NCBI GenBank assembly: GCA_017471025.1
Contig: JAFUWX010000033.1
Span: forward strand, 1-35,878
Length of the DNA: 35,878 nt
Source of the DNA: Bacteroidales bacterium
GTDB taxonomy: Bacteria > Bacteroidota > Bacteroidia > Bacteroidales > UBA932
Direction: 5' to 3'
The notes beneath the pieces were generated by a model. That model was not told the origin of the DNA. It did not search any database and was given only the letters and a program-made list of their open reading frames with translations. The position numbers were made by a program, and so were the translations under genes. Shown piece after piece: positions 5,537 through 32,857 of this stretch. Every line of letters begins with the position of its first letter. The stretch's first letter is position 1.

Positions 5537-5538
5537 GA

Positions 5539-8675: not shown

Positions 8676-8682
8676 CCTTTTT

Positions 8683-8713: not shown

Positions 8714-8736
8714 TACGATTTCCCCTACCGTGAAAG

Positions 8737-13623: not shown

Positions 13624-16600
13624 CTACGCTTTCTTGCACAGGAATACGGGCAGGTACATCAGTAGGGCGAATACGGAAAAGGCCATGCCGCTGATGGTGC
13701 CGACGGCAAAATCAAACCAGAATACCTCTTTGGGCCCATCCGACAGGAAGGGCAGCAGTCCGAGTATGGTCGAAAGGACCGTGAGCGAAATCGGGCCGAT
13801 TTTCTGCCGGAACGCCCGCAGGTAGCGTGCCGGGGTCGGCACCGGGGTCCGGCAGGCGCAGACCAGGTAGATGCCCGCGTTGACCGTCAGGCCGCAGAGC
13901 ATGACCAAGGCTGCGAATCCGCCCCTGTCAAAGGTGAAATCGCTCAGCCCGAAGGTCAGGAACAAGCCCAGGAAAGACACCGGAATCATCAGGATGACCG
14001 CCAGCGGGGCGCGCAGCGATTCGAAGGCGATGGTCAGCATGACCCAGATGACGGCGACGATCAGCAGGATCAGCCACAGATACCGCGCCTCGGCCTCCGG
14101 GGACCAGAATCCCGAGGGGGCTTCAGCCTTGTAACCGACCGGCAGCACGTCCTGGTTCAGCCAGTTGACCGTATCCTCGGCCAGTTTGCGCGACAGCTGC
14201 CAGCTCCCGATGAAATCATAGCAGACCCGCAAGGTATAGGACTGGTTGTCCCGGTAGATATCGATGCCGCTGCGCTGTTTCTCGATGTCTCCGATGCCCG
14301 AGAGGGTGATGGCCGTGCTGTCCACGGGAATCGGGACGCTGCGCACATGCCAGAGGTCGAAGCGGTCCGCGTCCGAGGAGTGGATGGTGACGGGCACACG
14401 CACGCCGCCTTCCGCCGGAAGGTCCAGATTCGAGGTGAAAAGCCGCTGGGAAAGGGCCTGGTAATAGGTCTCCGGACGCACGCCCGAGGCGGCCAGCGCC
14501 TCCCGGTCATAGTGGACATGCAACTCCGTGTCCGGCCGTCCCCACCAGCTGCCGCTCCGGATTTCCGGTCCGCTGACCCGGCGGTTCTCCGCCAGATGCG
14601 CCACCAGCTGCTGCGCATAACCCTGCAGCTGCTCGTAGTTGTATCCATGCAGGGTGATCTGGTCGCTCTTGTGGTCCGTGACGATGTTGTTGTTGAAATA
14701 CTGGTCGTTCACGCCGCTGATGCTCCAGTTCGCGCCGCCGTAGCTGATGGCTGCCGCCGTGACCTCCGACTTGAGGCGGGCCGGGAAGGCGGTATCCTCG
14801 AACTCCGGTTTGAAACGCACTGTGACCTCGCCGTCGGAGCGGCTGCGTATCTGCGTGGTAAACGATTCTATTTCAGGGAATTGAGATAGGAAATTCTCCA
14901 TCTCCAACATCACGTCGTTGAGCTGCGCCACGGTGCAGCCCTCCGGCATGCCGGCCCGGATGCTCAAGATCGTCCGGTCGGGCTCCCGGTAGAAATTGGC
15001 CCGGTCCAGGCTCCGGTGGAAAAGCCCCGAGAGCGAGCCCAGGACCTTGTCGATGCTGCTCCGGTGGGCGGCATAAGGCTCCCATCGGACGAGGCGCGCC
15101 GTCAGGGAATCGTCATCCCGCCCCAGCGAAGAGGCCTGCGGCAACAGATAGAGGGGCAGGCCGAAGGCGGTCAGCAGGACCAGCACCCAGAGCCAGCGGT
15201 GACGCGTCCCCCAGGCAATCAGCCGCCGGTAGCCCCGGTAGAAGCGCACCCGGCTCCGGCGCGGACGGTGTGCAGCCTGCTGCGCATCGTCGCCCAGCAC
15301 GTCCACGAGAGCCGGTACCAGCAGACCGCTGACGGCCAGCGAGACCGACAGGTTGACGACGATCACCGCCATGAAATCCGTCAGGTTGAGCCGTTCCTGC
15401 TGCGGCAGAAGCAGCACCAGCAGCAGGGCGGCCAGCGTCGTCAGCACGGCATAGACGATGGACGGGAAGGCCCCGTAATCGTGATATTTGCCATAATGGT
15501 CGGTCATCAGGATCGAGGTGTCGATGATGATGCCCAGCGATACGGTGATGCCGGCCAGGGTATAGATATGGATCGGCAGACCCAGCAGCCTGTACAGTCC
15601 CAGCGCCATCAGCAGGCTGGCCGCGAGCGAAAGCATCAGGATCAGCATCTTCCGCCAGGAGCGGCTCACCAGCAGCGAGAACAGCAGCAGGATCAGCAGG
15701 CACAGGCCGGTACGCAGTAGGATTTTCTGGAGTTCGTCCGCAATATACTCGGAAGAATCGTAGCTCAGTTCGGCCGTGATGTCGGCCGGGAATACCTGCC
15801 CTTGCAGCTGCGCCATCTCCTGCCGCAGCGCCCTGGCTGAGACGAGGAGGTTGGCCCGGGGCGAGAGGTCGGCTACGAGGGTGACGGTGTTGAGTCCGTT
15901 CAGCCGGAAATATGACTGTGGCGGGCGTTCCCGGTAATGGAAGGTGGCCAGTTCGCCCAGCGGGACGAGCCGCTGTCCCCTGATGCTGTCGGCCTGCATG
16001 CCGCGTACGGGAACGGGAATGTCGTAAAAGGACGGCGGCTCCTGCGCGTCCCCGGTCTGCAGCAGGACCGCATGCAGTCGTCCGTCTTCCTCCCACAGGC
16101 CCGCGATTTCGCTGCGCCGCGCCGTGCGGACCGCCTCGGTGATGTCGTCCCCGGTGACGCCGAGGGCCGCCGCCTTGTCGGCATCGTAAGTGATTTCCCA
16201 TTCGTAGGGCGTATCGCCCGATATGCTGACGCTTTCCACCCCGGGAATCCCCGAGAGGGGATAGGTCAGATGCCGCCGGGCGAATTCGGCGATGGCGCTG
16301 GCCGGGCGGGGGCTGCGCAGGCGCCAGACCAGTTGTCCGCCGCGTTCCCCGGAACCGCCGGCCGTCAGGTAGGGATAACCTGTCCCCGGCGGCAGGCTCG
16401 GCCAGAGGGAGGCAAGCCGGGTGGATGCTTCGAAGCGGGCCTGCTGCAGGTCGGCCCGCCGGTCGAGTTCGAGGGTGATGGCGGCACTGCCGCGATATGA
16501 GGTCGAAGAAATGTTTTTGCAGGCCGGCATGACGGACAGGGCGGCTTCCAGGCGGGAGGTCACTTCGGCCTCCATGACCGCCGGGGCGGCGTCCGGAAGG

Positions 16601-16743
16601 GTCACCCATACCTGGAGCATCTGCCGGTGGGGGATAGGCGTATAGCTCAGTTGCAGGCCTCGGGCGCCCAGCAGCCCGAGGACAGACAGGGCGACGGTCA
16701 CCAGGATGACCGTAAAAGGTGAGTATGCGCGGCCTTTCGCCAT
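13624..16743 (-). CDS. RND-family efflux permease, second of two tandem pumps
   Basis: Inner-membrane proton-driven pump of 1,039 residues, the AcrB-like size. It has a first transmembrane helix after MAKGRAYSPFTVILVTV, a large periplasmic pore domain, a central block of helices, a second periplasmic domain and a terminal helix block ending in LPVFLCKKA. In the fourth-helix region the proton-relay pair of AcrB (Asp407-Asp408) appears as Asp408-Thr409 (GIIIDTSILMTDHY), so the second Asp is lost. A much longer open frame exists upstream, but I start at ATG 16743, which overlaps the stop of the first pump by one base (TGATG) and gives a proper RND N-terminus. Likely forms a hetero- or alternative pump with the adjacent RND, MFP and TolC-like proteins. 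Substrate unknown. Confidence 0.9.
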   Translation of the reverse strand: MAKGRAYSPFTVILVTVALSVLGLLGARGLQLSYTPIPHRQMLQVWVTLPDAAPAVMEAEVTSRLEAALSVMPACKNISSTSYRGSAAITLELDRRADLQQARFEASTRLASLWPSLPPGTGYPYLTAGGSGERGGQLVWRLRSPRPASAIAEFARRHLTYPLSGIPGVESVSISGDTPYEWEITYDADKAAALGVTGDDITEAVRTARRSEIAGLWEEDGRLHAVLLQTGDAQEPPSFYDIPVPVRGMQADSIRGQRLVPLGELATFHYRERPPQSYFRLNGLNTVTLVADLSPRANLLVSARALRQEMAQLQGQVFPADITAELSYDSSEYIADELQKILLRTGLCLLILLLFSLLVSRSWRKMLILMLSLAASLLMALGLYRLLGLPIHIYTLAGITVSLGIIIDTSILMTDHYGKYHDYGAFPSIVYAVLTTLAALLLVLLLPQQERLNLTDFMAVIVVNLSVSLAVSGLLVPALVDVLGDDAQQAAHRPRRSRVRFYRGYRRLIAWGTRHRWLWVLVLLTAFGLPLYLLPQASSLGRDDDSLTARLVRWEPYAAHRSSIDKVLGSLSGLFHRSLDRANFYREPDRTILSIRAGMPEGCTVAQLNDVMLEMENFLSQFPEIESFTTQIRSRSDGEVTVRFKPEFEDTAFPARLKSEVTAAAISYGGANWSISGVNDQYFNNNIVTDHKSDQITLHGYNYEQLQGYAQQLVAHLAENRRVSGPEIRSGSWWGRPDTELHVHYDREALAASGVRPETYYQALSQRLFTSNLDLPAEGGVRVPVTIHSSDADRFDLWHVRSVPIPVDSTAITLSGIGDIEKQRSGIDIYRDNQSYTLRVCYDFIGSWQLSRKLAEDTVNWLNQDVLPVGYKAEAPSGFWSPEAEARYLWLILLIVAVIWVMLTIAFESLRAPLAVILMIPVSFLGLFLTFGLSDFTFDRGGFAALVMLCGLTVNAGIYLVCACRTPVPTPARYLRAFRQKIGPISLTVLSTILGLLPFLSDGPKEVFWFDFAVGTISGMAFSVFALLMYLPVFLCKKA

Positions 16744-19700
16744 CAGGAACGGGTTATGCTCCGGTACAGGGCCGGGACGACGAAGAGACTGACCAGGGTA
16801 CCCGCCGTCATGCCGGCCACGATGACCAGCGACAGGGGGAACTGGAGGTCGGCGCCGAGGTTGCCGCGCCAGAGGAAGGGACAGACGGCCAGGATGGTCG
16901 TCAAGGACGTCATGATGATGGCCTTGAGCCGGCGCTGCCCGGCCGTCAGGATGGCCTCGTCCGTGGACATGCCCTCCCGGCGCAGGCGGTTGATGGTGTC
17001 GATCTTGAGGATGGAATCGTTGATGACGATGCCGGTGATGACCACCAGGCCGATCATGGACATGAGGTTGAGGGTCTCGCCGCAGAGCCACAGCACCCCG
17101 ATGGCCACGCAAGCGTCGATGACGACTTCCAGCAGGATGATCACGGGCTGCAGGAGCGATTCGAACTGTGCGGCCAGGATGAGGTACAGCAGCACGATGG
17201 CGATCAGGAAGGTCAGCAGCAGGTCCCGGATCATGTCGCGCGTGGAGAACCAGCTGCCGGAGAATCCCGCCTCGAAACGGCCGTCCCGGGCGACGGCGCC
17301 GCGCACCGCTTCCATGGCCGCCGGCACATCGCGGTAGTCAATGTCGAACGCCACGGGATAGTAGGTGCCTTCCGGGCCTGAAAACAGGCTCTTGAGGTCT
17401 TCTGCCGTCCCTTGCCGCATCAAGGCGCTGAGCGGGATGTCGGTCTGGCCGGCGCGTACCGTGGTGCTCTCCAAGATCCTGGAGAGGGATTGCGGGTCGG
17501 TACTGATCAGCACCGGCACCGACCGGTCGCCCTGGACAAGGGTCAGCACGCGGTTGCTGCGCAGGGCGCTCCGCAGCGATGACAGCAGGGCGGGATACCC
17601 CACGCCGGAGAGCGCCATCCGCTCCGGGTCCGCGGTAAACACGATTTGTTCCTTGACCGGAATGGCCGGGATGGCCGTCCCGGGCATCGCCTCCCGGATG
17701 GCGGCCAGGCAGGTACGGAGCGAGGCCACGTCCGCCTCCTCCGACACCGTGCTGTGCAGGCGGGCGGTCAGGGGCGCTTCCCGGCTACCGAAAGCCAGGT
17801 CGAAGATATTGCCCGCCGGAGAGAATGCATAGCCGGCGCTGGGCCACAGCCGGTGGATGGAGGTCTCCAGCCGCGCTTGGGCATCCGTCAGGTCCTGTTC
17901 CCGGTCATAAGCCAGATAGAGCATGCCTTCGCCGCTTCCCAGGTCGCCGTCGTGGTCCAGGACGAACTGCTGTACCCCGGCCATGGCCGTTCGGTGCAGC
18001 GGCGCGGCCTCGTCCTCCAGCAGGGCCAGCCGCCGGATGCCTTCCTCGGGCGAGAGGCTTTCGTTCCAGTCGATACGAAGCAGGGTATCGGTCCGGGTCA
18101 GGTGGGGCAGGGTGGCTTTCGGGATGAACAGGAAGCCCAGCACGGCCCCGATGGCGGACAGGCCGACCAGCGCCCAGGCTACGCCCCGGTGGCGCAGCAT
18201 CCAGCTGTTCACCCGGCCGTCCCAGCGCTCCAGCGCCGGGGTAAAAGCGATGCGCTCCAGCAGCGGATGCGGACGGAAGGCCGTCTGACGCCGGTACCAG
18301 CAGAAATAATAGACCGGCACGGCGGTAATGGTCACGAGCCAGGAAGTGAACAGGACGATGGCGACAGCCAGGGCCTGGTCGCGGAACAAGGCGCCGGCGA
18401 GGCCGTTGATGCTGACCAGGGGAATGAATACCGCGCAGGTGGTCAGGATGGCGCTCAGCATCGGAGCCGTCACTTCCCGCGTACCCGTGAGCACGGACGC
18501 CCGCAAGGAGTCGCCCCGCTGCCAGCGTCCGGTGATGTTGTCCACCAGGATCAGCGTATTGTCCGTCATCATGCCGACACCCAGCAACAGCCCGGATAAG
18601 GATATGATATTCAGCGACATCCCGGCCAGTCGGAAGACCAGCATCGCAAAAACGAGCGACACGGGAATGGTGACGGCGACCAAGGCCGGGCTGCGGAAAT
18701 CCCGCATGAACAGGAAAATGGCCAGGCAGGCCAGCAGGATGCCGATGATGATGCTCTGAATCAGGTTGCCGATGGAATAGTCCAGCAGGGCCGTCTGGTC
18801 GCGGGTCAGGGTGAACTCCACGTCCGGATAATCCGTCCGCATCGTCTCCATCAACGCGGTGACGCTCCGGCGCAGGTCGCTCATCCGGGCGTCGCTCTGC
18901 TTGATGACGGCCAGGCTCACGGCGGGCTGACCGTCCGAGGTGAGCATGCCGGCGCGCGGGGCGGGTACTTCTTCGACCGAAGCGATTTCGCCCAGCTGCA
19001 GGAGCTGTCCGTCGTGGTTGATCCACAGGTCGCGGATTTCCCCGACGTCGGCGACATTTGACTGGAAACGTACGCCATATCGATACTGTCCGTCCCGGAT
19101 GGTCAGGCTTCCGAGCCGGATATCGGCCGAACGTACCAGGGACTCCAACTGCGTCGGGGTGATGCCGCACTGGGCCATCCGGGCGGCGTCGGGCACGATC
19201 AAGATTTCCGCTTCCTCATATCCGCTCGCGTCCACCATGGAGACGGCGTCCAGCTGCTCCAGGCGCTTGACGATAACATCGCGGGCGAAGCGGCTCAGGG
19301 CAAGGAAATCCCCGTTCCGCGCCGTCAGGTTCAGGTAGAAGGCCGGGAGGTCGGTCGCGCTGGCTTTCATGACCTTGGGCCGGCTGATGTCCGGCAGGGA
19401 ACCCATTGCGCGGTCCAGCTTTTCGTTGACCTCGATGAAACGGTAGTCCAGGTTGTCGGCATGGCTGAAGGACAGTTTGAGACGTGCGCTGCCGTCCTTG
19501 GCCTCGCCCTGTAAGCCGGCAATGCCGTCTATCTGCCGGAACTGGTTGCGCAGCGGCCGGACGACGGCGGCATCCAGCTCCCGGGCCGACATCTGGGGCG
19601 CATCGACCTGGACGGTGATATAGGGGATATCGACATCCGGCAGCAGCGATACCGGCAGGCGCAGGGCGCACACGATGCCCACAACGAGGATGCTCCCCAG

Positions 19701-19745
19701 CACCATCGTCACGGCTATCGGTCTGTCTATGAAATGCTTCAGCAT
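16743..19745 (-). CDS. RND-family efflux permease, first of two tandem pumps
   Basis: Inner-membrane pump of 1,000 residues. The N-terminus MLKHFIDRPIAVTMVLG and the LLPDVDIPYITVQVDAPQ segment are classic for the AcrB/HAE1 group. The proton-relay site reads Asp395-Asn396 in GMMTDNTLILVDNI, a variant of the Asp-Asp pair. The helix equivalent to AcrB TM10 reads GIVINDSILKID, lacking the Lys940 position. Such substitutions occur in Bacteroidetes RND proteins, so this does not by itself mean loss of activity. Its start overlaps the MFP stop by one base (TAATG) and its stop overlaps the second pump's start. Two different RND subunits behind one MFP suggest a heteromeric pump, as in MdtBC. Confidence 0.92.
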   Translation of the reverse strand: MLKHFIDRPIAVTMVLGSILVVGIVCALRLPVSLLPDVDIPYITVQVDAPQMSARELDAAVVRPLRNQFRQIDGIAGLQGEAKDGSARLKLSFSHADNLDYRFIEVNEKLDRAMGSLPDISRPKVMKASATDLPAFYLNLTARNGDFLALSRFARDVIVKRLEQLDAVSMVDASGYEEAEILIVPDAARMAQCGITPTQLESLVRSADIRLGSLTIRDGQYRYGVRFQSNVADVGEIRDLWINHDGQLLQLGEIASVEEVPAPRAGMLTSDGQPAVSLAVIKQSDARMSDLRRSVTALMETMRTDYPDVEFTLTRDQTALLDYSIGNLIQSIIIGILLACLAIFLFMRDFRSPALVAVTIPVSLVFAMLVFRLAGMSLNIISLSGLLLGVGMMTDNTLILVDNITGRWQRGDSLRASVLTGTREVTAPMLSAILTTCAVFIPLVSINGLAGALFRDQALAVAIVLFTSWLVTITAVPVYYFCWYRRQTAFRPHPLLERIAFTPALERWDGRVNSWMLRHRGVAWALVGLSAIGAVLGFLFIPKATLPHLTRTDTLLRIDWNESLSPEEGIRRLALLEDEAAPLHRTAMAGVQQFVLDHDGDLGSGEGMLYLAYDREQDLTDAQARLETSIHRLWPSAGYAFSPAGNIFDLAFGSREAPLTARLHSTVSEEADVASLRTCLAAIREAMPGTAIPAIPVKEQIVFTADPERMALSGVGYPALLSSLRSALRSNRVLTLVQGDRSVPVLISTDPQSLSRILESTTVRAGQTDIPLSALMRQGTAEDLKSLFSGPEGTYYPVAFDIDYRDVPAAMEAVRGAVARDGRFEAGFSGSWFSTRDMIRDLLLTFLIAIVLLYLILAAQFESLLQPVIILLEVVIDACVAIGVLWLCGETLNLMSMIGLVVITGIVINDSILKIDTINRLRREGMSTDEAILTAGQRRLKAIIMTSLTTILAVCPFLWRGNLGADLQFPLSLVIVAGMTAGTLVSLFVVPALYRSITRS

Positions 19746-20818
19746 TATTTCAGGACGACGGCCGAACCGTCTGCCAGGTTGAGGTTGCCGCTCACGATCA
19801 CGCGCTCACCGGGAGCGAGGGTCGCGCCGCGGTCGCCATTGGCCTCGACGGCGTAGGATTCGGCATTGGATTCCAACAGGTTGACATAGACCCAGCGGGC
19901 GGTACCTTCCTCCGTGAGGGTGAAGAGGACGGGCAGGTTGTCCCGGATGACGACGGCGCCCTTGGGTACCACCAGGCGTCCGGGCAGGGTCTTCTCCAGC
20001 AGGACATGGACATTCATCCCGTCCAGCAGGCCGCTTGCCCCGGGTACGCTGCCGGTCAGGGTCACGAGACCGTTCTTTCCCACGGAAGGATTGATGCCGG
20101 TCACCTGGCCGCGATACTCCTGCGACCCGTCTGTGAAGGGCCTGACCCGGATGGCCATGCCGCGGGAGACGCGCGCATAATCGGCTTCCATCACCGTGAA
20201 CTGCACTTCCATCGCACTGTCATCCAGCAGCGTGCAAAGGGCCGAGGAGGGGGCGGGGTCATGGACGCGGGCGCTCAGGTCGGCAACCCGTCCCGTGAAG
20301 GGGGCCTTCAGCACGGCGCCGTCCCGGTCGTACCGGGCTTTGGCCAGGGCGTTGCATGCAGCCGTATAGCCCGAGCGCATCCGGGCCATTTCCAGGATGT
20401 CCGCCGGGATCGAAGCCGTATCTTTCGGCGTATATCCCAGACCGGCCAGCCGGTCCAGCAGGTCGAGCCGGGCGCGTTGCAGCGCGATTTGTGCCGACTC
20501 CAGGGCCAGGTCCAGGTCGGGACGGTCCAGCTGGGCGATGACGGCTCCCTTTTCCACGCGGCTGCCCGGGCTTACGTTCAGCCGGCTGATGGTGCCGGAA
20601 GTCCTGAAGGACAGGGTAGCCTTGCGCATGGCGGAGAGGCGCCCGTTGGACAGAATCTGCACCGGGAAATCCGTACGCTGCAAGGTGATGACTTCCACTT
20701 TGTTTTCTTCGGGCTGCCAGTCCCGGCGGGCCTGTGGACTGTCCGTCGTTTTTCCGCCGCGGGTCCCGCAGGCGGTCAGGGCTGTGAGCCCCAGGAGAAG
20801 GGTAAGGATATGTTTCAT
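19745..20818 (-). CDS. Membrane fusion protein (periplasmic adaptor) of the RND system
   Basis: Lipoprotein adaptor of 357 residues joining the RND pumps to the outer-membrane channel. The lipobox LTAC places the lipidated Cys at residue 17. A lipoyl/barrel-sandwich half follows (SFRTSGTISRLNVSPGSRVEKGAVIAQLD), then an alpha-helical hairpin of about 80 residues, the second lipoyl half (VLKAPFTGRVADLSARV) and a beta-barrel domain (VMEADYARVSRGMAIRVRPF). This is the standard HlyD/AcrA order. It overlaps the TolC-like gene by 4 bases (ATGA) and the first RND gene by one. Confidence 0.92.
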   Translation of the reverse strand: MKHILTLLLGLTALTACGTRGGKTTDSPQARRDWQPEENKVEVITLQRTDFPVQILSNGRLSAMRKATLSFRTSGTISRLNVSPGSRVEKGAVIAQLDRPDLDLALESAQIALQRARLDLLDRLAGLGYTPKDTASIPADILEMARMRSGYTAACNALAKARYDRDGAVLKAPFTGRVADLSARVHDPAPSSALCTLLDDSAMEVQFTVMEADYARVSRGMAIRVRPFTDGSQEYRGQVTGINPSVGKNGLVTLTGSVPGASGLLDGMNVHVLLEKTLPGRLVVPKGAVVIRDNLPVLFTLTEEGTARWVYVNLLESNAESYAVEANGDRGATLAPGERVIVSGNLNLADGSAVVLK

Positions 20819-23807: not shown

Positions 23808-23813
23808 AAATGT

Positions 23814-26363
23814 TTATTTGCTAACGAAAACTTGCTGCCCATTTTGATTGATGATGAAGGAAAACTCTTCTCTTCCCCGTGTATAATTCTTAAGGTAGAA
23901 TACAGCATTGCTGGGCGCATTATCGTATATGAGAATTGTATCCCGAGCAATCTGGCGTCCAAGCCCTATCCATCCGGAAGGGCCATCTAAGTACATCAAT
24001 TCATATTCATCTCCAAAGCGGATGAAATTGTCGTCATTTCGTGGAACCCATTCAATTACGCTGACATGTTCGTTCTGTCCTAAATCGACAACAATCTTCC
24101 CGTTAATTGCTTCAGATCGGAAATATGTCAATTCATCGTTATCAATAATACTCTCAGCTTTTCGACCCCAACCAGGCTTATCTGTCATGAAGATACGAGT
24201 TGAATGGATTGTGTCCTGTCTGTCAAAATCTCTAAAAAAACGTAGCTCGGCCATTTGTGCTGGCCGTCCAGGTGATGCTGATAACTTAACGAACCGCATC
24301 GATGTATCAGGGTAAATCCAGTTATAATTGGATTGTGTACCTGGTAGGTAATAATCGTATGTTTTGGATGAGAAATGCGGATCTATATCCGCTTCGATTC
24401 TCATCATTTTAGATAATTGCATGTGCTCAATAAGCCAAAAGGGTATTCTCCTTTTCCGTTTCACTTGGACAACACGACGATGAATAGTATCTGGGTGAAA
24501 ATATGTAACATGGCCGGAAGAATCTGGGATAAACGGGTAGCTGACCAAGTTTTCATTGCGCATTAAGATATATGTATTTCCAGGCTCGATATTTTTTATA
24601 TGCACGGTTTTTTTATGGACTGCAGGCCTGTAGAAAGGATGCCATTGTCCATATGCGAAGACAGCGAGTTGCACCTCTCCAGGTGTATCCATTTTTATTT
24701 TTATGCTATTATGCCCGAAATAAGATGATGTAACATCTTTAAAGAGAGAACCCTGTTCTGGGAAGAACATGCGCCGATATACTTTTCCCTTTAACAATCC
24801 GTCAGAACCACCTCTACGAGCGACAATTCCATTCCAGCTATCCATCCAAAACATTTCATAACGTCCGGTGCTGTCCAAAACCATATTCCAGATGTGTGTC
24901 CCGTCAATTCGACTATAATCGGTTGTGACTGGAATTCCCAACGCTCTGAATAAGTATAATGCAAAGTCAGTACTTTCACGGCAGGTTCCTATGCGATGAT
25001 TCAGCAGGAACTTAGGCCCTAAAGAAGGAAGATTACAGACATCGTGGTAGTAAAAAGAAGTATCCTTTAAACATCGCTGTATGGTACTTACAGCCACTAT
25101 AATATCAGAACTCTTACATAATGAATCCATAAGGGGGGCATATCTTTGTTCGTAAATTTCACGCCATTCTTCCGGACGTTCATCTCCGACCCTATAGGGC
25201 AGGATGAAGTTACAAAATTGCTCAAATGATATGTACCGTGACCAAGGACGCTTACGCCAACTTGCGAATGCCCTGTCTATATTGCTAATTAATAAACTAG
25301 CTGATATTAATTGTTGGTCATATATACGCATGTTAGGCATTTTTACATAAGATTTAAGTTTGCTGTCGCATTCCTTGCGTAAATGTGCCATACTGGCGAG
25401 TGTCGCTTTGATAGAGTCTTCTGAATCAGACTCAATGTATGAATAGTGATATGGCATTGCCGCAATTAGATATTCTGCTGCGAGCCTTTTTAAAGAATCG
25501 GTCTCATAATAATCCAATACATATTCGAGATTGCTTCGATTATCAGCGGCTGTATTAAGAGCCGTTCGGATACCGTTTCTGAAAGATTTGTGAAATGTTC
25601 TTTTCTTATGAGTTTTCCCAATAACGAAATCATCGGGAACGATGCCGAAGTAACGGCTGTCACGGGAGTTGTCCACGAGGTCTCCGCCAAAAAAATAATA
25701 GTCGTGCCTGAAAGTATAAGTTGTAAGACTGTCCGCTATTTGAGCCTGCGGGATACCGGTCTCGTATTCTATGGCTCGGGCATAGATGGCAGCAGATATG
25801 GAATCTATGGCGACTGTGTCCCCTTTTCGAGGCACATAGACGGGTCCCATGTTCTTGATGCTCCAACCCGGAAGGTACGGGAAGGCGGGAAGAAAAACGC
25901 CCTTTTCCGCCAGCGTGCTGTCTGATGCCTCACAGAGGGCGCGTTGTGCCGGAATAGATCCCGTCCGAAGTCCGTTCCGTAAATAATAGCCGTCACGGAT
26001 ACATAAGGTGTCTCCCGGAGAGGCTATGCAGCGTTTGATATATACGCGGTTAATTTTAAACGAGATGTGTCCGTCACCGAAAGGGTCTGGATCATTGAAG
26101 ATGACCAGATCGTCGTGCTGGATTCTCCCGAGTCCATGGAGGCGAAAGCATTTCAGTTTAGGCTGAGAAAAGTCGAAGGAGGTGTAAATGCGGCAGCCCA
26201 AAGGCAGTTTGTTCGCCCATACGACTTGACCGTCCCGTAGCGTGGGATACATGGACTCTCCGCGAACGATGAACCAGTCCGTTATGCAGATACGCGCCAG
26301 CACCCCCGCCAGCACGATGGCGACGAGGGTGTATGCGGTATATCTGATAAGGCGTTGAGGCAT
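23814..26363 (-). CDS. Signal peptidase I fused to a transglutaminase-like domain and a C-terminal discoidin-like domain
   Basis: An 849-residue fusion. Residues 1-255 are a complete signal peptidase I: one transmembrane helix (8-27), catalytic Ser37 in GESMYPTL, catalytic Lys110 in YIKRCIASPGD, GPVYVPRKGD, and the C-terminal box GDLVDNSRDSRYFG (227-240). Residues about 270-520 are a transglutaminase-like domain with MPYHYSY, CNFILPYRVGDE and an intact triad, Cys461 (GTCRESTDFALYLFRALG), His490 (THIWNMV) and Asp508 (WMDSW). The last 250 residues are beta-rich and end in a galactose-binding/discoidin-like module (IIDNDELTYFRS, IVVDLGQ, VIEWVPRNDD). Signal peptidase topology puts everything after the helix in the periplasm. 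I start at ATG 26363, not the TTG at 26372. G+C falls from about 60% at the 5' end to about 40% after 25.7 kb, suggesting a chimeric origin. Probably matures exported proteins such as the NVEALA peptides (inference). Confidence 0.88.
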   Translation of the reverse strand: MPQRLIRYTAYTLVAIVLAGVLARICITDWFIVRGESMYPTLRDGQVVWANKLPLGCRIYTSFDFSQPKLKCFRLHGLGRIQHDDLVIFNDPDPFGDGHISFKINRVYIKRCIASPGDTLCIRDGYYLRNGLRTGSIPAQRALCEASDSTLAEKGVFLPAFPYLPGWSIKNMGPVYVPRKGDTVAIDSISAAIYARAIEYETGIPQAQIADSLTTYTFRHDYYFFGGDLVDNSRDSRYFGIVPDDFVIGKTHKKRTFHKSFRNGIRTALNTAADNRSNLEYVLDYYETDSLKRLAAEYLIAAMPYHYSYIESDSEDSIKATLASMAHLRKECDSKLKSYVKMPNMRIYDQQLISASLLISNIDRAFASWRKRPWSRYISFEQFCNFILPYRVGDERPEEWREIYEQRYAPLMDSLCKSSDIIVAVSTIQRCLKDTSFYYHDVCNLPSLGPKFLLNHRIGTCRESTDFALYLFRALGIPVTTDYSRIDGTHIWNMVLDSTGRYEMFWMDSWNGIVARRGGSDGLLKGKVYRRMFFPEQGSLFKDVTSSYFGHNSIKIKMDTPGEVQLAVFAYGQWHPFYRPAVHKKTVHIKNIEPGNTYILMRNENLVSYPFIPDSSGHVTYFHPDTIHRRVVQVKRKRRIPFWLIEHMQLSKMMRIEADIDPHFSSKTYDYYLPGTQSNYNWIYPDTSMRFVKLSASPGRPAQMAELRFFRDFDRQDTIHSTRIFMTDKPGWGRKAESIIDNDELTYFRSEAINGKIVVDLGQNEHVSVIEWVPRNDDNFIRFGDEYELMYLDGPSGWIGLGRQIARDTILIYDNAPSNAVFYLKNYTRGREEFSFIINQNGQQVFVSK

Positions 26364-26377
26364 GTCGTACAAAGAAC

Positions 26378-26549
26378 TTATCGTTTAAGGTTGAACGAAA
26401 AAATCCCGAAGCCTTCTTCACCCTGTAACTGCACGGTATCCATATCCACGTATTCCGTCACTGGCTGCTGATTCTGGCAGGCAACGGCCAGAATCAGCAA
26501 AAAGAAGAGCCAATGTGATAGGGAGCATTCATCGGGGGCATACACTTTT
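26378..26549 (-). pseudogene. Internally deleted remnant of a propeller lipoprotein gene
   Basis: Near-identical to the two ends of the propeller gene at 28862-29860 with the middle (about 900 bases) missing. From ATG 26541 it repeats MPPMNAPYH, loses one base (frameshift relative to the intact copy), repeats the rest of the signal peptide up to the codons for VDMDAVQ, then jumps directly to the gene's last codons (QGEEGFGI...). The copied stop codon is altered, moving the end to 26378-26380. About 8 bases upstream also match the 3' end of the NVEALA gene that precedes the intact copy. It lies between an intact propeller gene and the signal peptidase fusion and cannot encode a working protein. 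Confidence 0.8.
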
Positions 26550-26574
26550 GGACTTGACTGATAAACATTGTCGA

Positions 26575-27720
26575 TTACTTGGAAAGATGAACGGCTATGA
26601 TAAAGTCATCGTCCGGATTCAGTTTTGATTCGGCCAGCCGGGCCTGAATTTTCTCGCGAAGCGGAGTAGGTTGTTTCAATGCGTCGAACCTGGAAGAAAA
26701 ATCCAGTGCATTCCAATAGCATAACAAGGTGTCTCCGTTGCTGCCTTGAATATTGGATAGCGGGAAGCCTAAGGCTTCATTCATGCAAGTTGTATCTGCG
26801 AAATATGCTTTTTTCGTGTCCTTATCCAAAAGGGTAAACTGAGCATCGAAAAATGGAAGGAGAATCCATTTTGAGGTCTCATAAATTCCGGAAAAACAAG
26901 GTGATATTTTCCCATTTAAGCATCTTACGCCCATCTCAAGCAACGAAAAATCACTTGACTCAGCTAAGAACTTTGCGGATGGGACAGGACTTGGAGTCGG
27001 AATGGTATCCGTTACGGTCAGTAAGTCATCCTTGATTTCGTAGATATGGTTGTCAAAAGGGACGACGCAACGGAGGTTCGCATTATAGTCAGAAAGGGTA
27101 TGCTTCCCGATTCCTTGAATGGCGTGTTGGGACTTGAATGCTAACTCTTTGAGTTTGATTGCGGCGGAGAAATCTTTTCCGGGGGCCTTGAGATAAATGC
27201 AGGATTGGTCGCGGAATAAGCCGCAACTGAGTATCAAATCGTTGCCGACCTGGACGGCGTCAGTGACTTCATAGGATGACAAGCCATTGAGATGTTCGGT
27301 GTATTGATAAGTGCCCTGAAGCGAATAGTGGAGGATATTTGATTTGAAAGAATCAATCAGGCACAAATCCTGGTCCTTCTCGGAAAAATAGAAGGTGTTC
27401 AGTCTAAGCCATTCAGCATTGGAATTGCCATAGGCTGATATTTCCCGTAAAGTTCCCTTTTCTGGAGAAAACAAGAACAGCCCATTTCCGGTGAGAATGT
27501 AATAGGCCCCGTTGCGGTATGCGATTTTGGTTACAAAGGAAATGGGGTGTCCTTGCGGGACAGGAATCAGTTCGATGTCACTGACCCAATGCTGTAAGAC
27601 GGCGGAGGGCTCACTTTCCAGGGAATAGGATGTGCCACTTTGCGTCTTGGAAGAGCAGCTAATCAATCCCCATGCTGCGGCGATTGACAGGGCTATACAC
27701 GCAATCCAGTTGCTTTTCAT
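26575..27720 (-). CDS. 6-bladed beta-propeller lipoprotein (divergent copy)
   Basis: Lipoprotein of 381 residues with lipobox GLISC (Cys22). It has repeated beta-strand blocks typical of the Bacteroidetes 6-bladed propeller/TolB-like family paired with NVEALA genes: IAYRNGAYYILTGNGLFLFS, LNGLSSYEVTDAVQVGNDLIL and the ending NPDDDFIIAVHLSK. Where sister proteins have the blade motif GRGPGE, this one reads YGNSNAEWLRL, so it is the most diverged of the six. It follows the NVEALA gene by 21 bases in the thioredoxin/NVEALA/propeller cassette. Function of the family is unknown; a binding partner or receptor for the peptide encoded beside it is inference. Confidence 0.78.
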   Translation of the reverse strand: MKSNWIACIALSIAAAWGLISCSSKTQSGTSYSLESEPSAVLQHWVSDIELIPVPQGHPISFVTKIAYRNGAYYILTGNGLFLFSPEKGTLREISAYGNSNAEWLRLNTFYFSEKDQDLCLIDSFKSNILHYSLQGTYQYTEHLNGLSSYEVTDAVQVGNDLILSCGLFRDQSCIYLKAPGKDFSAAIKLKELAFKSQHAIQGIGKHTLSDYNANLRCVVPFDNHIYEIKDDLLTVTDTIPTPSPVPSAKFLAESSDFSLLEMGVRCLNGKISPCFSGIYETSKWILLPFFDAQFTLLDKDTKKAYFADTTCMNEALGFPLSNIQGSNGDTLLCYWNALDFSSRFDALKQPTPLREKIQARLAESKLNPDDDFIIAVHLSK

Positions 27721-27741
27721 AAATAACCGAAATTGTAATGG

Positions 27742-28125
27742 TTAATTAAAGTAAACCCGAATACCTTGCTCTCCAGCATTGCAGCAGTTCCCAGAGCTAT
27801 TTGTACAAGAAAATCTTGCCCAGCATCCGTTATAAACGTTGCCGGCGGTATAATTACCTTTAATTGTTACCCCCATTATAGTTAATTCCCCTGATACTGT
27901 GCATGTCTGCGAGATAATCCCACCATCAGCGCAAACGAGCGCCATGTTCCAGTAACCATTATTCGTTCGGCACGTCTCCTCGTCTCCATAAACTTCGATA
28001 GAAGCAAGGGCTTCGACATTCATTTCGAAGAGGTCCATTGAATGATTCTTTGACTTGACGCCGCAAACAAACGCCAATGCCGCAACGCTAATGACTGATA
28101 CAATAATTTTAACGTTTTTCTTCAT
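27742..28125 (-). CDS. NVEALA-family exported peptide with a long cysteine-rich core
   Basis: Small exported protein of 127 residues. The N-terminal leader has a basic start, a hydrophobic helix (residues 7-22) and a polar stretch ending in DLFEMNVEALA, with NVEALA at residues 36-41 and a Cys at 21, exactly as in the other three copies here. The 86-residue core has seven Cys (TCR, VCA, TCT, GCW, SCT, NCC) and many Gly, Asn and Thr. It is almost twice as long as the other cores and does not share their four-Cys pattern. It overlaps the thioredoxin-like gene by 17 bases and precedes a propeller gene. The family (NVEALA, PF14055 from memory) has no established function that I know of. Confidence 0.85.
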   Translation of the reverse strand: MKKNVKIIVSVISVAALAFVCGVKSKNHSMDLFEMNVEALASIEVYGDEETCRTNNGYWNMALVCADGGIISQTCTVSGELTIMGVTIKGNYTAGNVYNGCWARFSCTNSSGNCCNAGEQGIRVYFN

Positions 28126-28690
28126 GATTTAAAAAATTGATTATTAAAGATTTAATCATATCACTATGAGCAGGATTTCCGACAACTACCGGATGTCCTT
28201 TAGGGTCAAGTAAGAAATAGTGAAAACGCTTGTCGTTAGGGATGACTGCGCTGTTGTTACGCGAAAATTCTCCTTGTGAATCAATCCATAGAGGGTAGAG
28301 GTGTGATGCTAGAATCAAGTCATTGAGCACGGAGGTAATATCTTCTGGATTGGTTGAGAAAACTATGTATAGATCTAAAGATTGTTTTTTGGCAAAATCG
28401 AAAAGATTACTATCATCTGCTAAGTGAAGGGCTCTGCACGAGGAGCAGTCTTCTGGAGAAACATAAACAACAAACCGGGGACCTCCTTGTAGGGTGATAG
28501 AATCTTTAATATGTCCATTTTCTAGGATGGACATTTTGTCAGGGAATGTAATGGTGGCAGCCTGGAATTCTCGTAAGGCCTTTCGCAATTGTTGCTTTTC
28601 TCCGCACGAAGGGAGGAGACATAGAATCCCAAGGAAGAGGGCAAGATGCTGAAAACAAGTGGAATGTATATTTAAACTCTTATGAGTCAC
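28109..28690 (-). CDS. Thioredoxin-like lipoprotein with a CSSC motif
   Basis: Lipoprotein of 193 residues with lipobox LLPSC (Cys29), anchored facing the periplasm. A thioredoxin-like fold is suggested by the strand FVVYVS followed by CSSC (residues 82-85), then helices and FHYFLLDPKGHPVVVGNP, which resembles the end of TlpA/redoxin domains. It could form, break or shuffle disulfides in the Cys-containing NVEALA cores. The start codon is GTG at 28690, supported by the match of its signal peptide to that of the propeller at 31263 (HSTC/HSAC, lipid Cys at 29 in both). It is the first gene after the promoter at 28722-28753 and overlaps the NVEALA gene by 17 bases. Confidence 0.78.
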   Translation of the reverse strand: MTHKSLNIHSTCFQHLALFLGILCLLPSCGEKQQLRKALREFQAATITFPDKMSILENGHIKDSITLQGGPRFVVYVSPEDCSSCRALHLADDSNLFDFAKKQSLDLYIVFSTNPEDITSVLNDLILASHLYPLWIDSQGEFSRNNSAVIPNDKRFHYFLLDPKGHPVVVGNPAHSDMIKSLIINFLNHEEKR

Positions 28691-28721
28691 GTGGTTATTT
28701 GTTATTTTTAGTTTTCGTTAG

Positions 28722-28753
28722 CAAAGTTACAATAATTAACAGATTAATCCAAA
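28722..28753 (-). promoter_or_regulatory. Promoter of the thioredoxin/NVEALA/propeller/signal-peptidase unit
   Basis: On the minus strand TTTG (28750-28753), a 20-base spacer and TAACTTTG (28722-28729) match the Bacteroidetes -33/-7 consensus, 31 bases before the GTG start at 28690. The -7 element is identical to that of the promoter at 31298-31329. No terminator is visible before 13624, so this promoter could serve the whole block down to the RND pumps. Confidence 0.75.
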
Positions 28754-28757
28754 TTAT

Positions 28758-28841
28758 TTACGATTTAATTCGGTTTTGCTCGTATCTTCCATATGGTCCT
28801 GCAATAGCGTGTGCGGGATATCCGAGAAAGCGTTGAAGCAT
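28758..28841 (-). pseudogene. Stub of the signal peptidase fusion gene start
   Basis: From ATG 28841 the first 36 bases match the first 36 bases of the gene starting at 26363 at 28 positions by hand alignment (MLQRFLGYPAHA against MPQRLIRYTAYT). The sequence then diverges into a short open frame of 27 codons ending at 28758-28760. It sits about 20 bases after the stop of the propeller gene at 28862, just as the full gene sits after the propeller remnant at 26378. So propeller followed by signal peptidase was duplicated and this copy lost the enzyme. Confidence 0.6.
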
Positions 28842-28861
28842 GCCGGACAAGGGCATTATCG

Positions 28862-29860
28862 TTAAAGATGGAACGTGACGATTCCGAAGCCCTCTTCACC
28901 CTGAACCAAGCCGGCGAATTGTCCGGAGGGGCTGATACTGAAGCGTATGCACCCGTAAGGGATTCTGCGGCAAGCGCAAACTTCGCCTTGGGGGCCTATT
29001 TCCACGAGGTAGGTGTAGGAAGGTTCGGAGGCGGAAGGCTGGTCGAAATACAGTACGAAGATGTGCCCGTTCCAGTATATCGGGTCCATGTAATAAACGT
29101 AATCCTCGCCATTGTAGTAGGCCTCAGGGGTAGTGACATGCTTGTGTGCTGAACGGAACTGGATCCGCTTAAGCACTTTCCCTTGGCTTAGAGACTGTAT
29201 CTCAAACGAGGGAAGAGAGGTATAGAATACAAAAAGGCTGTCGCTTTGTTTCCCGGGCAGAGGAAACGCGTAAGTCAGATTGTCCCGATCATCCCGACTC
29301 CAATTGTCCGCCCAATCCGGGAAAACGCCGACAGGGCGGGTCTGCTTCTTCTTGGCGTTGAATATCTCGAAGGGCTGCTTTTCTCCGAGAACTTGATAAA
29401 TCACCTCATCATTCGAAAGCATGGCAGGCCGGTTTACCGCCTGATTCTTCATAGGAATGTTGTCTTGCAGGGTAGCGGTGCCGCTCTGAATCTCGTAGGA
29501 AGACAGGCCGGAGTGGTTGGTTACGGCTTTAAGCTGATGAGACTGGGCGCTGTTTTTAATAAGCTGAAAGTCAACCACTTCGCCGGGTCCCCGTCCGTAG
29601 CGGACGGAACTTCCTCCTTCGTGGGAATACAGGGCGCCGTTTTTGCGGTTTCTGTTGACAATGAACAGGGTTTCTCCTGCATAGAAGAGATCGGTCGGCA
29701 CAATAGCTTCATCAAGCGGGACAAATGCTGCTTGAGGCTCCTGTACCTGCACGGCATCCATATCCACGTATTCCGTCACGGGCTGCTGATTCTGGCAGGC
29801 AAAGGCCAGAATCAGCAAAAAGAAGAGCCAATAGTGATAAGGAGCATTCATCGGGGGCAT
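28862..29860 (-). CDS. 6-bladed beta-propeller lipoprotein with GRGPGE motif
   Basis: Lipoprotein of 332 residues with lipobox LAFAC (Cys22). Beta-rich throughout, with the blade motif YGRGPGEVVDF (about residues 88-98) found in most of its sisters, then NHSGLSSYEIQSG, YYNGEDYVYYMDPIYW and the terminal blade FSISPSGQFAGLV. Two starts are possible: ATG 29860 (used here) or ATG 29851, which overlaps the NVEALA stop by 4 bases (ATGA) and is equally good for the signal peptide. It is the last intact gene of the unit driven from 31298-31329. Both ends are duplicated in the remnant at 26378-26549. Function unknown. Confidence 0.8.
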   Translation of the reverse strand: MPPMNAPYHYWLFFLLILAFACQNQQPVTEYVDMDAVQVQEPQAAFVPLDEAIVPTDLFYAGETLFIVNRNRKNGALYSHEGGSSVRYGRGPGEVVDFQLIKNSAQSHQLKAVTNHSGLSSYEIQSGTATLQDNIPMKNQAVNRPAMLSNDEVIYQVLGEKQPFEIFNAKKKQTRPVGVFPDWADNWSRDDRDNLTYAFPLPGKQSDSLFVFYTSLPSFEIQSLSQGKVLKRIQFRSAHKHVTTPEAYYNGEDYVYYMDPIYWNGHIFVLYFDQPSASEPSYTYLVEIGPQGEVCACRRIPYGCIRFSISPSGQFAGLVQGEEGFGIVTFHL

Positions 29861-30117
29861 ACACTTTTACGTCTGGGCCGATATACATCGTCGTATTTGC
29901 AGCCGTCGCATATTCGGACGTGTTGCAAAGTTCCGAAGTAACTATAGTAGCTGAAAGTGTCATAACACTCGTATTTTGTAGAAGATTCTTCGTCAGCCAA
30001 TACCTCCACATTCTTTTCGAAGAGGTCTTCGGTCTGATCGTTTGTTTGGACGAAGCAGAAAGCTGCTAAAGCAGCGATTCCTGCGGCTGTGATAGTCTCC
30101 ACAATACGTGTTTTCAT
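29848..30117 (-). CDS. NVEALA-family exported peptide (NVEVLA variant), four-Cys core
   Basis: Small exported protein of 89 residues. The leader of 41 residues is nearly identical to the copies at 32582 and 34021 (AAGIAALAAFCFVQT, DLFEKNVEVLA) with Val in place of Ala at residue 39. The 48-residue core is Tyr-rich and carries Cys at 51, 70, 73 and 87: C-x18-C-x2-C-x13-C, ending in C-P-R. It lies between two propeller genes, 39 bases after the upstream one and overlapping the downstream one. The DNA encoding the leader and about 70 bases upstream is repeated at 32748-32927. Confidence 0.87.
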   Translation of the reverse strand: MKTRIVETITAAGIAALAAFCFVQTNDQTEDLFEKNVEVLADEESSTKYECYDTFSYYSYFGTLQHVRICDGCKYDDVYRPRRKSVCPR

Positions 30118-30187
30118 GGATTTGGAGTTATAATGATTTGTAATTCAAGTTTATGGCTATTGTTTATGGGTAATGTAACCCAGGTAC
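30008..30187. repeat. About 180-base direct repeat, copy 1 (NVEALA leader plus 5' flank)
   Basis: Covers most of the NVEALA leader coding sequence, the spacer before it, and the last codons of the upstream propeller (YITHKQ and stop). Near-identical to 32748-32927; within the 73-base flank 30115-30187 I count two differences. The leader part recurs at 34160-34281, and a 35-base part of the flank recurs before the propeller at 35698 (35697-35731). Confidence 0.85.
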
Positions 30188-31263
30188 AGCCGCTTTTCCC
30201 TGTCGGATACGACTGCGTAGATGGTGTCACGGAATGCCGTTACACACATTTTCTCAATATTATAATCCGTTTCCAAATGACCTACGGGCTTGCCGTCCCA
30301 ATCGAAAACGTATATATCGTTGTTTTCCAGCTCTTTCCCAGACACTTTTTCCTTGTTGGAAAGCAGATTTACGTCTGCGCCAATCGCGGCGTACAGATAG
30401 TCATCTGTTGCGAACAAGTCCCTCAGTCCAGCCTTGGTGTCAGCGGTCAGCGAAGGTGTTGCTCCATAGACCAATGCGGGATCCACAAGTTTTAAGCATG
30501 CCTTTGGGCGTAAAGCCGGAAGATCGTAGATTTCGAGGATGGCTCCCCAGACAGAGCCGACAGCAAGACGATTTCCTCGCTCATTTACAGACATCAGGCA
30601 TTCCGTATAGAGATTGAACATTTCCACCGGATCTGAGAAGGGCTCAAAGTCCTGGGTCTGAAGGGTATCCCCATAAATATCTTTTACCATAAGGCGGTGG
30701 TATCCCATCGTGTCCGGATGGGCATAGCCTATTTGATTGAGGATAATGCTTTCTTCACCTGTCGGACCACATGCGCATGCATTCCTCGCATAGGGCTTGA
30801 TATCCAAGATAGAGACTGTCGGTGATAGGAATTCTTCATGCATGGACGAAAAGGAGCATGAAATCTGTTTCCTTACAGGTAAATCATAGATGAAAAGGCT
30901 GTCTCCTCGGGCACTGCACGCAGGAATCGTAAATATTTCTCCCGGGCCGTTTCCCCGATGGAAGTAATCACCGGTTGCAGCTCCTGTGCGTTTATCATAT
31001 ACATGGCACCATGTCTGGTCCTTGCGGTCATAATATATGACGTACAGATATTGGCCATGTTCAAAAATATCGTTCGCCATGTTCGCCATTAATTCTCCGG
31101 TTATGAGATGGACTTTAGCATGGCCCATGTTCGGGAAGTCCGGCATTTGATAATCAGACCGGCTATCCGTATCCGCGCAAGCCGGGAAAAGATATAAGGC
31201 CCCAACGAAGAAGGCGAGATAACGCATACAAGCGGAATGTAGATGTAAGTTCCTTGAGGCCAT
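30157..31263 (-). CDS. 6-bladed beta-propeller lipoprotein, first gene of the middle unit
   Basis: Lipoprotein of 368 residues with lipobox LFPAC (Cys29). The signal peptide matches that of the thioredoxin-like lipoprotein at 28690, although the mature proteins are unrelated. The blade motif is HRGNGPGEIF (sisters: GRGPGE). Further strands are LFIYDLPVRKQISCSF, LTADTKAGLRDLFATDDYLYAAIGADV and DIYVFDWDGKPVGHLETDYNI, the last being a typical closing blade. Its final codons (YITHKQ, TAG) lie inside the direct repeat 30008-30187. It follows the promoter at 31298-31329 by 34 bases and precedes an NVEALA gene. Confidence 0.82.
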   Translation of the reverse strand: MASRNLHLHSACMRYLAFFVGALYLFPACADTDSRSDYQMPDFPNMGHAKVHLITGELMANMANDIFEHGQYLYVIYYDRKDQTWCHVYDKRTGAATGDYFHRGNGPGEIFTIPACSARGDSLFIYDLPVRKQISCSFSSMHEEFLSPTVSILDIKPYARNACACGPTGEESIILNQIGYAHPDTMGYHRLMVKDIYGDTLQTQDFEPFSDPVEMFNLYTECLMSVNERGNRLAVGSVWGAILEIYDLPALRPKACLKLVDPALVYGATPSLTADTKAGLRDLFATDDYLYAAIGADVNLLSNKEKVSGKELENNDIYVFDWDGKPVGHLETDYNIEKMCVTAFRDTIYAVVSDREKRLYLGYITHKQ

Positions 31264-31297: not shown

Positions 31298-31329
31298 CAA
31301 AGTTAAATATTATAAAAATAATATACAAT
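31298..31329 (-). promoter_or_regulatory. Promoter of the middle propeller/NVEALA unit
   Basis: On the minus strand ATTG (31326-31329), a 20-base spacer and TAACTTTG (31298-31305) fit the Bacteroidetes consensus, 34 bases before the ATG at 31263. The -7 element is identical to that at 28722-28729, so the two units may respond alike. The surrounding 100 bases are strikingly AT-rich. Confidence 0.7.
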
Positions 31330-31527: not shown

Positions 31528-31578
31528 TTAGGGACACTTGTTGAAGCTGATGTCCGAGAAGGGGTCGAGGCATTTCAC
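31528..31578 (-). pseudogene. Possible tail of a lost NVEALA-type peptide (16 codons)
   Basis: A 16-codon frame starting with GTG (31576-31578) overlaps the TGA stop of the propeller gene (GTGA) and reads MKCLDPFSDISFNKCP. It ends in Cys-Pro as two of the NVEALA peptides here do (CPR, CPK) and has two Cys 12 residues apart. No NVEALA leader is present. It may be the 3' remnant of a fifth peptide gene or a chance frame. Confidence 0.3.
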
Positions 31579-32581: not shown

Positions 32582-32857
32582 TTATAACATGCAGTCAGAA
32601 GGAGTGTTTGCTGTGGATGTTTTAACAAGTGTACAGTCAGAGCATCTGCGGACTTCTAGATAGAGTTGAGGGTCATACCCTTCTGCTACACGCATAAAGC
32701 AGAGGACATGATCAATGGGTATGAGTTCATCTGCTGCTAGCGCCTCGACGTTTCTTTCGAAGAGGTCGTTGGTCTGATTGTTTGTTTGAACGAAGCAGAC
32801 TGCTGCTAAAGCAGCGATTCCTGCGGCTGTGATAACCTCCACAATACGTATTTCCAT
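32582..32857 (-). CDS. NVEALA-family exported peptide, four-Cys core
   Basis: Small exported protein of 91 residues with the 41-residue leader (TAAGIAALAAVCFVQTNNQ, then DLFERNVEALA at 31-41). The 50-residue core has Cys at 53, 72, 75 and 89: C-x18-C-x2-C-x13-C. These are exactly the core spacings of the peptide at 29848, although little else in the core matches. It ends DCML without the final Cys-Pro of its sisters. It precedes a propeller gene by 17 bases; upstream lies a 100-base gap with a remnant of another propeller's 3' end. The ATG start fits the position-locked leader. Confidence 0.87.
   Translation of the reverse strand: MEIRIVEVITAAGIAALAAVCFVQTNNQTNDLFERNVEALAADELIPIDHVLCFMRVAEGYDPQLYLEVRRCSDCTLVKTSTANTPSDCML

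Follow-up and report, generated by a model that had tools for sequence, protein, structure and literature searches.

The NVEALA peptide block of a Bacteroidales contig

The window analyzed here is the whole of one contig (JAFUWX010000033.1, 35,878 nucleotides; G000:C15 in our numbering) from a 2.0-Mb draft genome of a Bacteroidales bacterium with a completeness of 80.7%. From position 28690 down to 13624 it carries nine open frames, all on the minus strand, which encode in this order a thioredoxin-like lipoprotein, a peptide of the NVEALA family (PF14055), a propeller lipoprotein, a fusion of an S26 signal peptidase with a transglutaminase-like protein, a Wzy_C-TPR protein, a TolC-like outer membrane factor, a HlyD-like membrane fusion protein (MFP), and two resistance-nodulation-division (RND) transporters, RND1 and RND2. 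RND, HlyD-type, and OEP genes were thus found together by Pfam, as in a tripartite pump. An earlier annotation made from the letters alone (the sequence-only reading) had proposed that these genes form a candidate system for exported peptides. The same-strand block that it described was confirmed, with all nine genes present as open frames, and so were the tight junctions from the fusion gene onward (+6, -4, -4, -1, and -1 bases; negative values are overlaps). The three preceding junctions measured -17, +21, and +202 bases, the last counted from a TTG start of the fusion gene at 26372 (211 bases from its ATG at 26363). The start of RND2 was placed at 16743, while a mechanical open reading frame (ORF) start would be 17112. 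Upstream of the block on the same strand, three further NVEALA-type peptides and five further propeller or propeller-like genes extend up to 35698 (Table 1).

Table 1. Positions of the block genes, upstream genes, scar, and promoter match in the window
Feature	Position	Strand	Basis or remark
Thioredoxin-like lipoprotein with CSSC	28109..28690	-	no Pfam match
NVEALA peptide, 127 amino acids, 7 Cys in core	27742..28125	-	motif; Pfam score below cut-off
6-bladed beta-propeller lipoprotein	26575..27720	-	DUF5128 over Pfam cut-off
S26 signal peptidase/transglutaminase-like fusion with C-terminal carbohydrate-binding-like part	23814..26363 (ATG start)	-	profiles, alignments
Wzy_C-TPR protein without WaaL catalytic His	22299..23807	-	Pfam, alignment to relatives
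TolC-like outer membrane factor	20815..22302	-	OEP over Pfam cut-off
HlyD-type membrane fusion protein	19745..20818	-	HlyD_3 over Pfam cut-off
RND transporter 1 (RND1)	16743..19745	-	ACR_tran over Pfam cut-off
RND transporter 2 (RND2), ATG start 16743	13624..16743	-	ACR_tran over Pfam cut-off
Propeller-like lipoprotein, parent of scar	28862..29860	-	by eye and position; no Pfam match
NVEALA-type peptide with NVEVLA	29848..30117	-	motif
TolB_like propeller lipoprotein	30157..31263	-	TolB_like profile
Propeller-like lipoprotein	31575..32564	-	TolB_like below cut-off
NVEALA peptide	32582..32857	-	motif present; below Pfam cut-off
TolB_like propeller lipoprotein	32958..34019	-	TolB_like profile
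NVEALA peptide	34021..34281	-	29.1 bits, over Pfam cut-off
Propeller-like lipoprotein	34661..35698	-	TolB_like below cut-off
Scar: 5' end of duplicated propeller-like gene	26422..26573	-	140/152 bases identical to 29740-29893
Scar continued: propeller-like gene 3' end running into fusion gene start	26331..26425	-	74/95 identical to 28809-28903
Reciprocal remnant of fusion gene start	28809..28841	-	27/33 identical
Bacteroidetes-type promoter match TTTG-N20-TAACTTTG ahead of thioredoxin-like gene	28722..28753	-	full match to consensus

NVEALA proteins look like leader peptides with variable cores

All four peptides of the window bear the NVEALA motif or its variant NVEVLA; their Pfam scores were 29.1 (34021-34281), 25.1, 23.0 (27742-28125), and 19.3, against a cut-off of 27. 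Pfam undercalls the family, as motif-bearing peptides were found in four genomes that were negative by Pfam (G044, G091, G092, and G120). Screening for the motif, a hydrophobic start, and the expected size yielded 79 peptides, 74 of them unique; gene calls in this and the other genome scans followed a simple longest-ORF scheme. The motif began after 32 to 47 residues, mostly 34 to 38, and ended a median of 23 residues (range, 15 to 29) beyond the computed hydrophobic segment. At the A-x-A of the motif, position -3 was alanine in 72 of the 74 unique peptides and position -1 was alanine, serine, or threonine in all of them, counts that are only partly independent as the search pattern limited both positions. 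The glutamate found at +3 in 59 of 74 was not forced by the pattern. Cores with 2, 4, or 6 cysteines were likewise present in 59, and an ORF of 260 to 470 amino acids lay close downstream of 63.

To compare leaders and cores, 60 of 63 peptide-propeller pairs from 29 genomes were kept, with known same-genome loci merged and with L053 and propellers more than 0.8 alike removed. Leader similarity was 0.579 within and 0.254 between genomes, and core similarity was 0.089 and 0.093, respectively, i.e., the conserved leader and variable core of leader/core secreted peptides. On this comparison, NVEALA proteins look like a leader joined to a variable core. The leader/core build and the A-x-A within the motif support the sequence-only reading on the peptides.

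A dedicated S26 peptidase co-occurs with the peptides

The peptidase domain of the fusion protein scored 81.1 bits with Peptidase_S26, over the Pfam cut-off, and 76.6 with the signal peptidase I model NCBIfam TIGR02227 (cut-off, 47). Positions matching the Ser and Lys of Escherichia coli LepB were invariant in an alignment of 14 of 14 S26 relatives. In a sample of the order comprising 296 genomes from 170 genera (completeness of at least 95%, except for the window's own genome), a dedicated S26 was found in 16 genomes, NVEALA in 21, and both in 15 (p = 1.4e-19). Within the family (249 genomes), NVEALA was present in 21, a dedicated S26 and/or transglutaminase in 36, and both in 18 (p = 8.5e-15). 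The 36 genomes were picked by reading at E values of about 1e-22 or better, leaving out housekeeping-type frames of ~390 to 450 amino acids; the NVEALA count includes G029 and G039, whose matches fall within frames of 390 and 290 amino acids, respectively, and are possibly spurious. G239 was rejected as a case of NVEALA without the system, with Wzy_C, thioredoxin-like, and propeller genes at a contig end and the pump on another contig. The protease dedicated to NVEALA that had been postulated earlier is in line with this co-occurrence, which holds for 15 of the 16 S26 genomes among the 296.

The gene set recurs in relatives

We read 20 regions around S26 and transglutaminase relatives in the same family. 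Transglutaminase-anchored loci of named records were taken from the best 80 of 499 relatives, and the 59 of these 80 that spanned at least 8 kb were used for counts. The gene set recurred across Bacteroidales in varying order and completeness, in support of the sequence-only reading. Several clusters were near complete (e.g., L036 and L043; L140 had no transglutaminase and Wzy_C genes on its contig, and L133 no S26 in its stretch). Other loci held parts only, and in 12 of 59 the transglutaminase gene stood by itself. In Phocaeicola vulgatus ATCC 8482, we found NVEALA, thioredoxin-like, propeller, transglutaminase, S26, transglutaminase, Wzy_C-TPR, MFP, RND1, and TolC genes, where the stretch stops. 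A Parabacteroides goldsteinii stretch held S26, transglutaminase, NVEALA, propeller, and thioredoxin-like genes without a pump, and one of Bacteroides ihuae NVEALA, propeller, transglutaminase, Wzy_C, MFP, RND1, and TolC genes without S26. Within the transglutaminase-anchored loci, NVEALA was found in 12 of 16 loci with S26 versus 10 of 43 others, in 17 of 17 with a thioredoxin-like gene, and in 9 of 11 with an MFP gene.

The pump was followed in 30 chosen genomes, 15 of the 36 with S26/transglutaminase (system genomes) and 15 of the same genera without matches. RND1 relatives of the clusters scored 731 to 1151 bits, whereas no other RND protein in these genomes exceeded 276, and this subfamily was present in 14 of 15 system genomes and in 1 of 15 others (G207). 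Wzy_C occurred in 13 and 0 of these two sets, respectively. Across the 249 family genomes, RND1 was found in 25 of the 36 with S26/transglutaminase (p = 3.8e-7).

Pump loci without a detected S26 were also inspected. At least one propeller-profile match was present in 14 of 21 (a hand tally without a background rate, which includes G239 with its NVEALA on another contig), and several contained small secreted cysteine peptides. Of 13 such peptides listed by hand (12 tested and one of L168), 12 had no strict NVEALA motif; one peptide, from G200 (a genome 76% complete), reads NAEALA. Both G200 peptides and the L168 peptide matched the NVEALA profile loosely. G207 has kept peptides, propellers, the thioredoxin-like protein, and the pump, but it lacks S26, transglutaminase, and Wzy_C as well as the NVEALA motif. 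In this small, hand-picked sample, the shared absence fits the NVEALA motif being the cleavage site of the dedicated S26.

Putative modifying enzymes of the block

A CxxC was present in the thioredoxin-like protein in 14 of 14 profile sequences, that of the window included. The transglutaminase-like part of the fusion protein scored 14.9 with Transglut_core (PF01841), under the gathering cut-off of 23 for the superfamily; Cys202 and His231 were nevertheless invariant in 39 of 39 relatives. No conserved acidic residue was seen by eye at the expected third place of the Cys-His-Asp triad. F5_F8_type_C also scored under its cut-off (18.5; cut-off, 28.2). The C-terminal part of the fusion protein (23814-25586) matched the carbohydrate-binding module 2yb7 half by half, with the order of the halves reversed (profile E value, 2e-32), and looks like a circularly permuted module of this kind. 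The record of 2yb7 is annotated as carbohydrate binding family 6; we take it to be CBM62. Where the transglutaminase is a separate protein, a lipobox-like start was present in 84 of 102 unique sequences.

The fusion itself was seen in this genome only. Another 40 unique genes for a dedicated S26 were all unfused, the longest encoding 336 amino acids, and apparent frames of 992 and 1014 amino acids in two relatives resolved as separate genes, with stop codons between the S26 and transglutaminase genes in L048 and two ORFs in L135. A conserved fusion was therefore rejected, and that of the window may be an assembly error.

The Wzy_C-TPR protein scored 45.4 with Wzy_C, over the Pfam cut-off of 31.7 for O-antigen ligases; all TPR models stayed below their cut-offs, while a profile of the relatives did match solved TPR proteins. 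It also matched the O-antigen ligase WaaL (7tpg; E value, 2.3e-6). These scores, the retention of Arg130 and Arg186 in every unique relative that has a residue at these positions, and the carbohydrate-binding-like part of the transglutaminase would suit glycopeptide assembly, in which the Wzy_C-TPR protein attaches a glycan to the core. However, a Phe was aligned on the His of the AHN stretch of WaaL, and this HN-motif position was occupied by Phe in 47, Tyr in 3, and Leu in 1 of the 51 unique relatives that have a residue at this site and by His in none (56 rows with repeats, 53 unique, 2 gapped at this position). The aligned residue is inferred to be His338 of WaaL, to which a central role is ascribed (PMC10449877). 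Since this His is replaced throughout, the ligase-like step of the sequence-only reading is doubtful. Moreover, a Pfam scan found no glycosyltransferase among the nine block genes, and we regard glycopeptide assembly as quite improbable.

Loci with transglutaminase and Wzy_C-TPR genes in the absence of NVEALA, S26, propeller, and thioredoxin-like genes (L129, L122, L130, L106, L127, and others) were also seen outside Bacteroidales, in Pedobacter, Flavitalea, and Mucilaginibacter. L122 and L129 have other small secreted proteins nearby, some with a TRS motif. In Bacteroides salyersiae (L129:8566-9249), a secreted-looking protein of 227 amino acids with a cysteine-rich C-terminal stretch and no Pfam match is encoded near the transglutaminase and Wzy_C genes.

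A candidate pathway for peptide maturation and export

On balance, we lean toward a system dedicated to maturing and exporting small cysteine-bearing peptides, all biochemical steps being predicted. The NVEALA protein would be a precursor, anchored in the inner membrane by its hydrophobic leader, and its C-terminal core would reach into the periplasm. The dedicated S26 would cut after the A-x-A of NVEALA, farther past the hydrophobic segment than at ordinary signal-peptide sites. The CxxC thioredoxin-like lipoprotein would set the core cysteines, the transglutaminase-like Cys/His enzyme (here fused to S26) would process the core further, and the TolC-MFP-RND1-RND2 pump would carry the periplasmic core through the outer membrane. 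The paired propeller lipoprotein would be the partner of its core, as chaperone, receptor, or self-protection. The distribution is best read as a wider core of peptide, propeller, thioredoxin-like protein, and pump, with an NVEALA-S26 module often joined by transglutaminase and Wzy_C-TPR.

Several observations weigh against this pathway. In the order sample, 6 of the 21 NVEALA genomes had no S26 at threshold (G308, G344, G417, G445, G453, and G475), and G374 had S26 only, as a partial match. Among the transglutaminase-anchored loci, 4 of 16 with S26 had no NVEALA, and 19 of 59 had transglutaminase and Wzy_C without NVEALA, S26, propeller, or thioredoxin-like genes; a tie between Wzy_C and NVEALA in these loci was rejected at an odds ratio of 0.9. 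Ordinary signal peptides have A/V/S-x-A 1 to 5 residues past the hydrophobic end, and among the 12 tested peptides of S26-less pump loci, 5 had this spacing, 2 had an NVEALA-like spacing of 15 to 17, and the rest fitted neither cleanly. RND1 at an E value of 1e-150 or better was found in 78 of the 249 family genomes, several at 686 to 709 bits and one at 533. No S26/transglutaminase was detected in 53 of these 78, nor RND1 in 11 of the 36 S26/transglutaminase genomes. We therefore rejected a pump exclusive to NVEALA; the dedicated pump of the sequence-only reading survives as a distinct RND subfamily enriched with the system. Finally, at about 30 to 85 residues, the cores would be bulky cargo for an RND pump.

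Pumps of the RND type usually move small molecules, and this, together with the 53 pump genomes without S26/transglutaminase and the carbohydrate-binding-like part of the transglutaminase, would suit an envelope module. Here, the NVEALA peptides would stay in the envelope, bound to the membrane or to propellers, as sensors or structural parts, S26 would only release or sort them, and the pump would export an unrelated small molecule or lipid. The propeller-profile matches in two-thirds of the S26-less pump loci, several of which have small cysteine peptides, argue against such a module, which we consider unlikely.

If the peptides are exported, as we favor, their cores could be toxins or pheromones and the propellers immunity proteins or receptors, i.e., the system would serve antagonism or kin recognition. 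The variable cores with conserved leaders, 18 NVEALA matches in a single genome (G081), and the ORFs close downstream of most peptides all point in this direction. Core similarity rose with propeller similarity (Pearson r = 0.47, p = 1e-4), and this held when the shuffling of propellers was restricted to single genomes, while leader-propeller similarity gave p = 0.23 under the within-genome shuffle. Without merging of same-genome loci (apart from L035/L036), leader similarity was 0.647 and the leader-propeller p value 0.44. Two points count on the other side. The Spearman correlation of cores and propellers was only 0.12; a few recognizable core classes therefore carry the pairing, which is suggested by few cases. 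Linked inheritance would equally give such pairing, although leaders would in that case have to be exchanged on their own. In addition, eight window proteins had no PADLOC match, on which ground a defense system was rejected, and no known toxin signature was seen. This variant of the export pathway is rather doubtful.

A deletion scar within the block

The sequence-only reading had named 26364-26574 as its weak link, where a second promoter could split the block. This 211-base stretch is a deletion scar and no ordinary intergenic region: it contains a duplicate of the propeller-like gene at 28862-29860 that has lost its interior, so that the start of the gene is followed by its end. The two scar alignments scored 234 and 85, compared with 23 for the best of 200 shuffles. 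A remnant of the fusion gene start, directly behind the intact propeller-like gene, scored 36 versus 18. Scar and reciprocal remnant together place the thioredoxin-NVEALA-propeller cassette within a duplicated propeller-fusion junction. For promoters, we scanned for one type, the Bacteroidetes-type consensus TTTG-N17-23-TAnnTTTG. The full pattern occurred twice in the window (28722-28753, minus strand; 8683, plus strand) versus a mean of 0.17 in shuffles, so that the only match on the strand of the block lies ahead of its first gene. A TAACTTTG with an upstream TTG was present at 31298-31305, ahead of the gene starting at 31263. In the 211-base stretch, neither the full pattern nor TAnnTTTG was found on the coding strand, and a second promoter of this one type was rejected there. 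A single transcript from 28.7 to 13.6 kb is plausible.

Elsewhere in the window, 3252-6888 carries a tandem of three lipoprotein-like genes that begin with a Cys box; on visual inspection, two of the three look like coiled coils. At 7035-10599, a TPR-AraC regulator precedes a lipoprotein-like DNA/RNA non-specific endonuclease. On another contig of the same genome (G000:C1 2211-3423, L148), an NVEALA match and a propeller stand apart from the cluster.

Relation to known export systems and significance

Peptidases of the S26 type dedicated to one substrate are known in the pairs TraF-TrbC and SodX-NiSOD, which have other substrates and another gene context. TasA of Bacillus is a biofilm matrix protein, and SipW-TasA is not known to come with a variable core set, propeller, transglutaminase, or RND pump. 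The likeness of SipW-TasA to the block lies in a signal peptidase that serves a single exported protein, the site of which is poorly cut by E. coli LepB (PMC10269814). Double-glycine export by PCAT/C39 systems likewise has short precursors with a leader, a dedicated peptidase, and an exporter, but it runs through ABC transporters that have a C39 peptidase and does not involve Sec (PMC8277102). In contrast, the block combines S26 and RND with a hydrophobic leader, and a Pfam scan found no ABC or C39 domain among its nine proteins. NVEALA (PF14055) together with PF15869/PF17170 propellers represents the same families as here. To our knowledge, NVEALA has no described function. In the open-licence papers of PMC (subscription papers and preprints lay outside this scope), the word NVEALA was absent, and no published link of NVEALA or its propellers to S26, transglutaminase, Wzy_C-TPR, or RND was found. 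Related clusters occur in other gut bacteria, for which this literature likewise yielded no description of a role.

Tentatively, the block may represent an undescribed Sec-dependent route for small peptides, with an S26 cut at a displaced A-x-A, redox handling, RND-powered export, and variable cores, each with a propeller as receptor or self-protection in Bacteroidales contests or signaling; in this full form, we hold it to be possible rather than probable. The system should be testable in cultured strains, as the set is nearly whole in P. vulgatus ATCC 8482 and present in parts in P. goldsteinii and B. ihuae. If true, Sec-S26-RND would be a different solution for peptide export, the NVEALA and propeller families would gain a testable function, and a variable repertoire of secreted peptides would be predicted.

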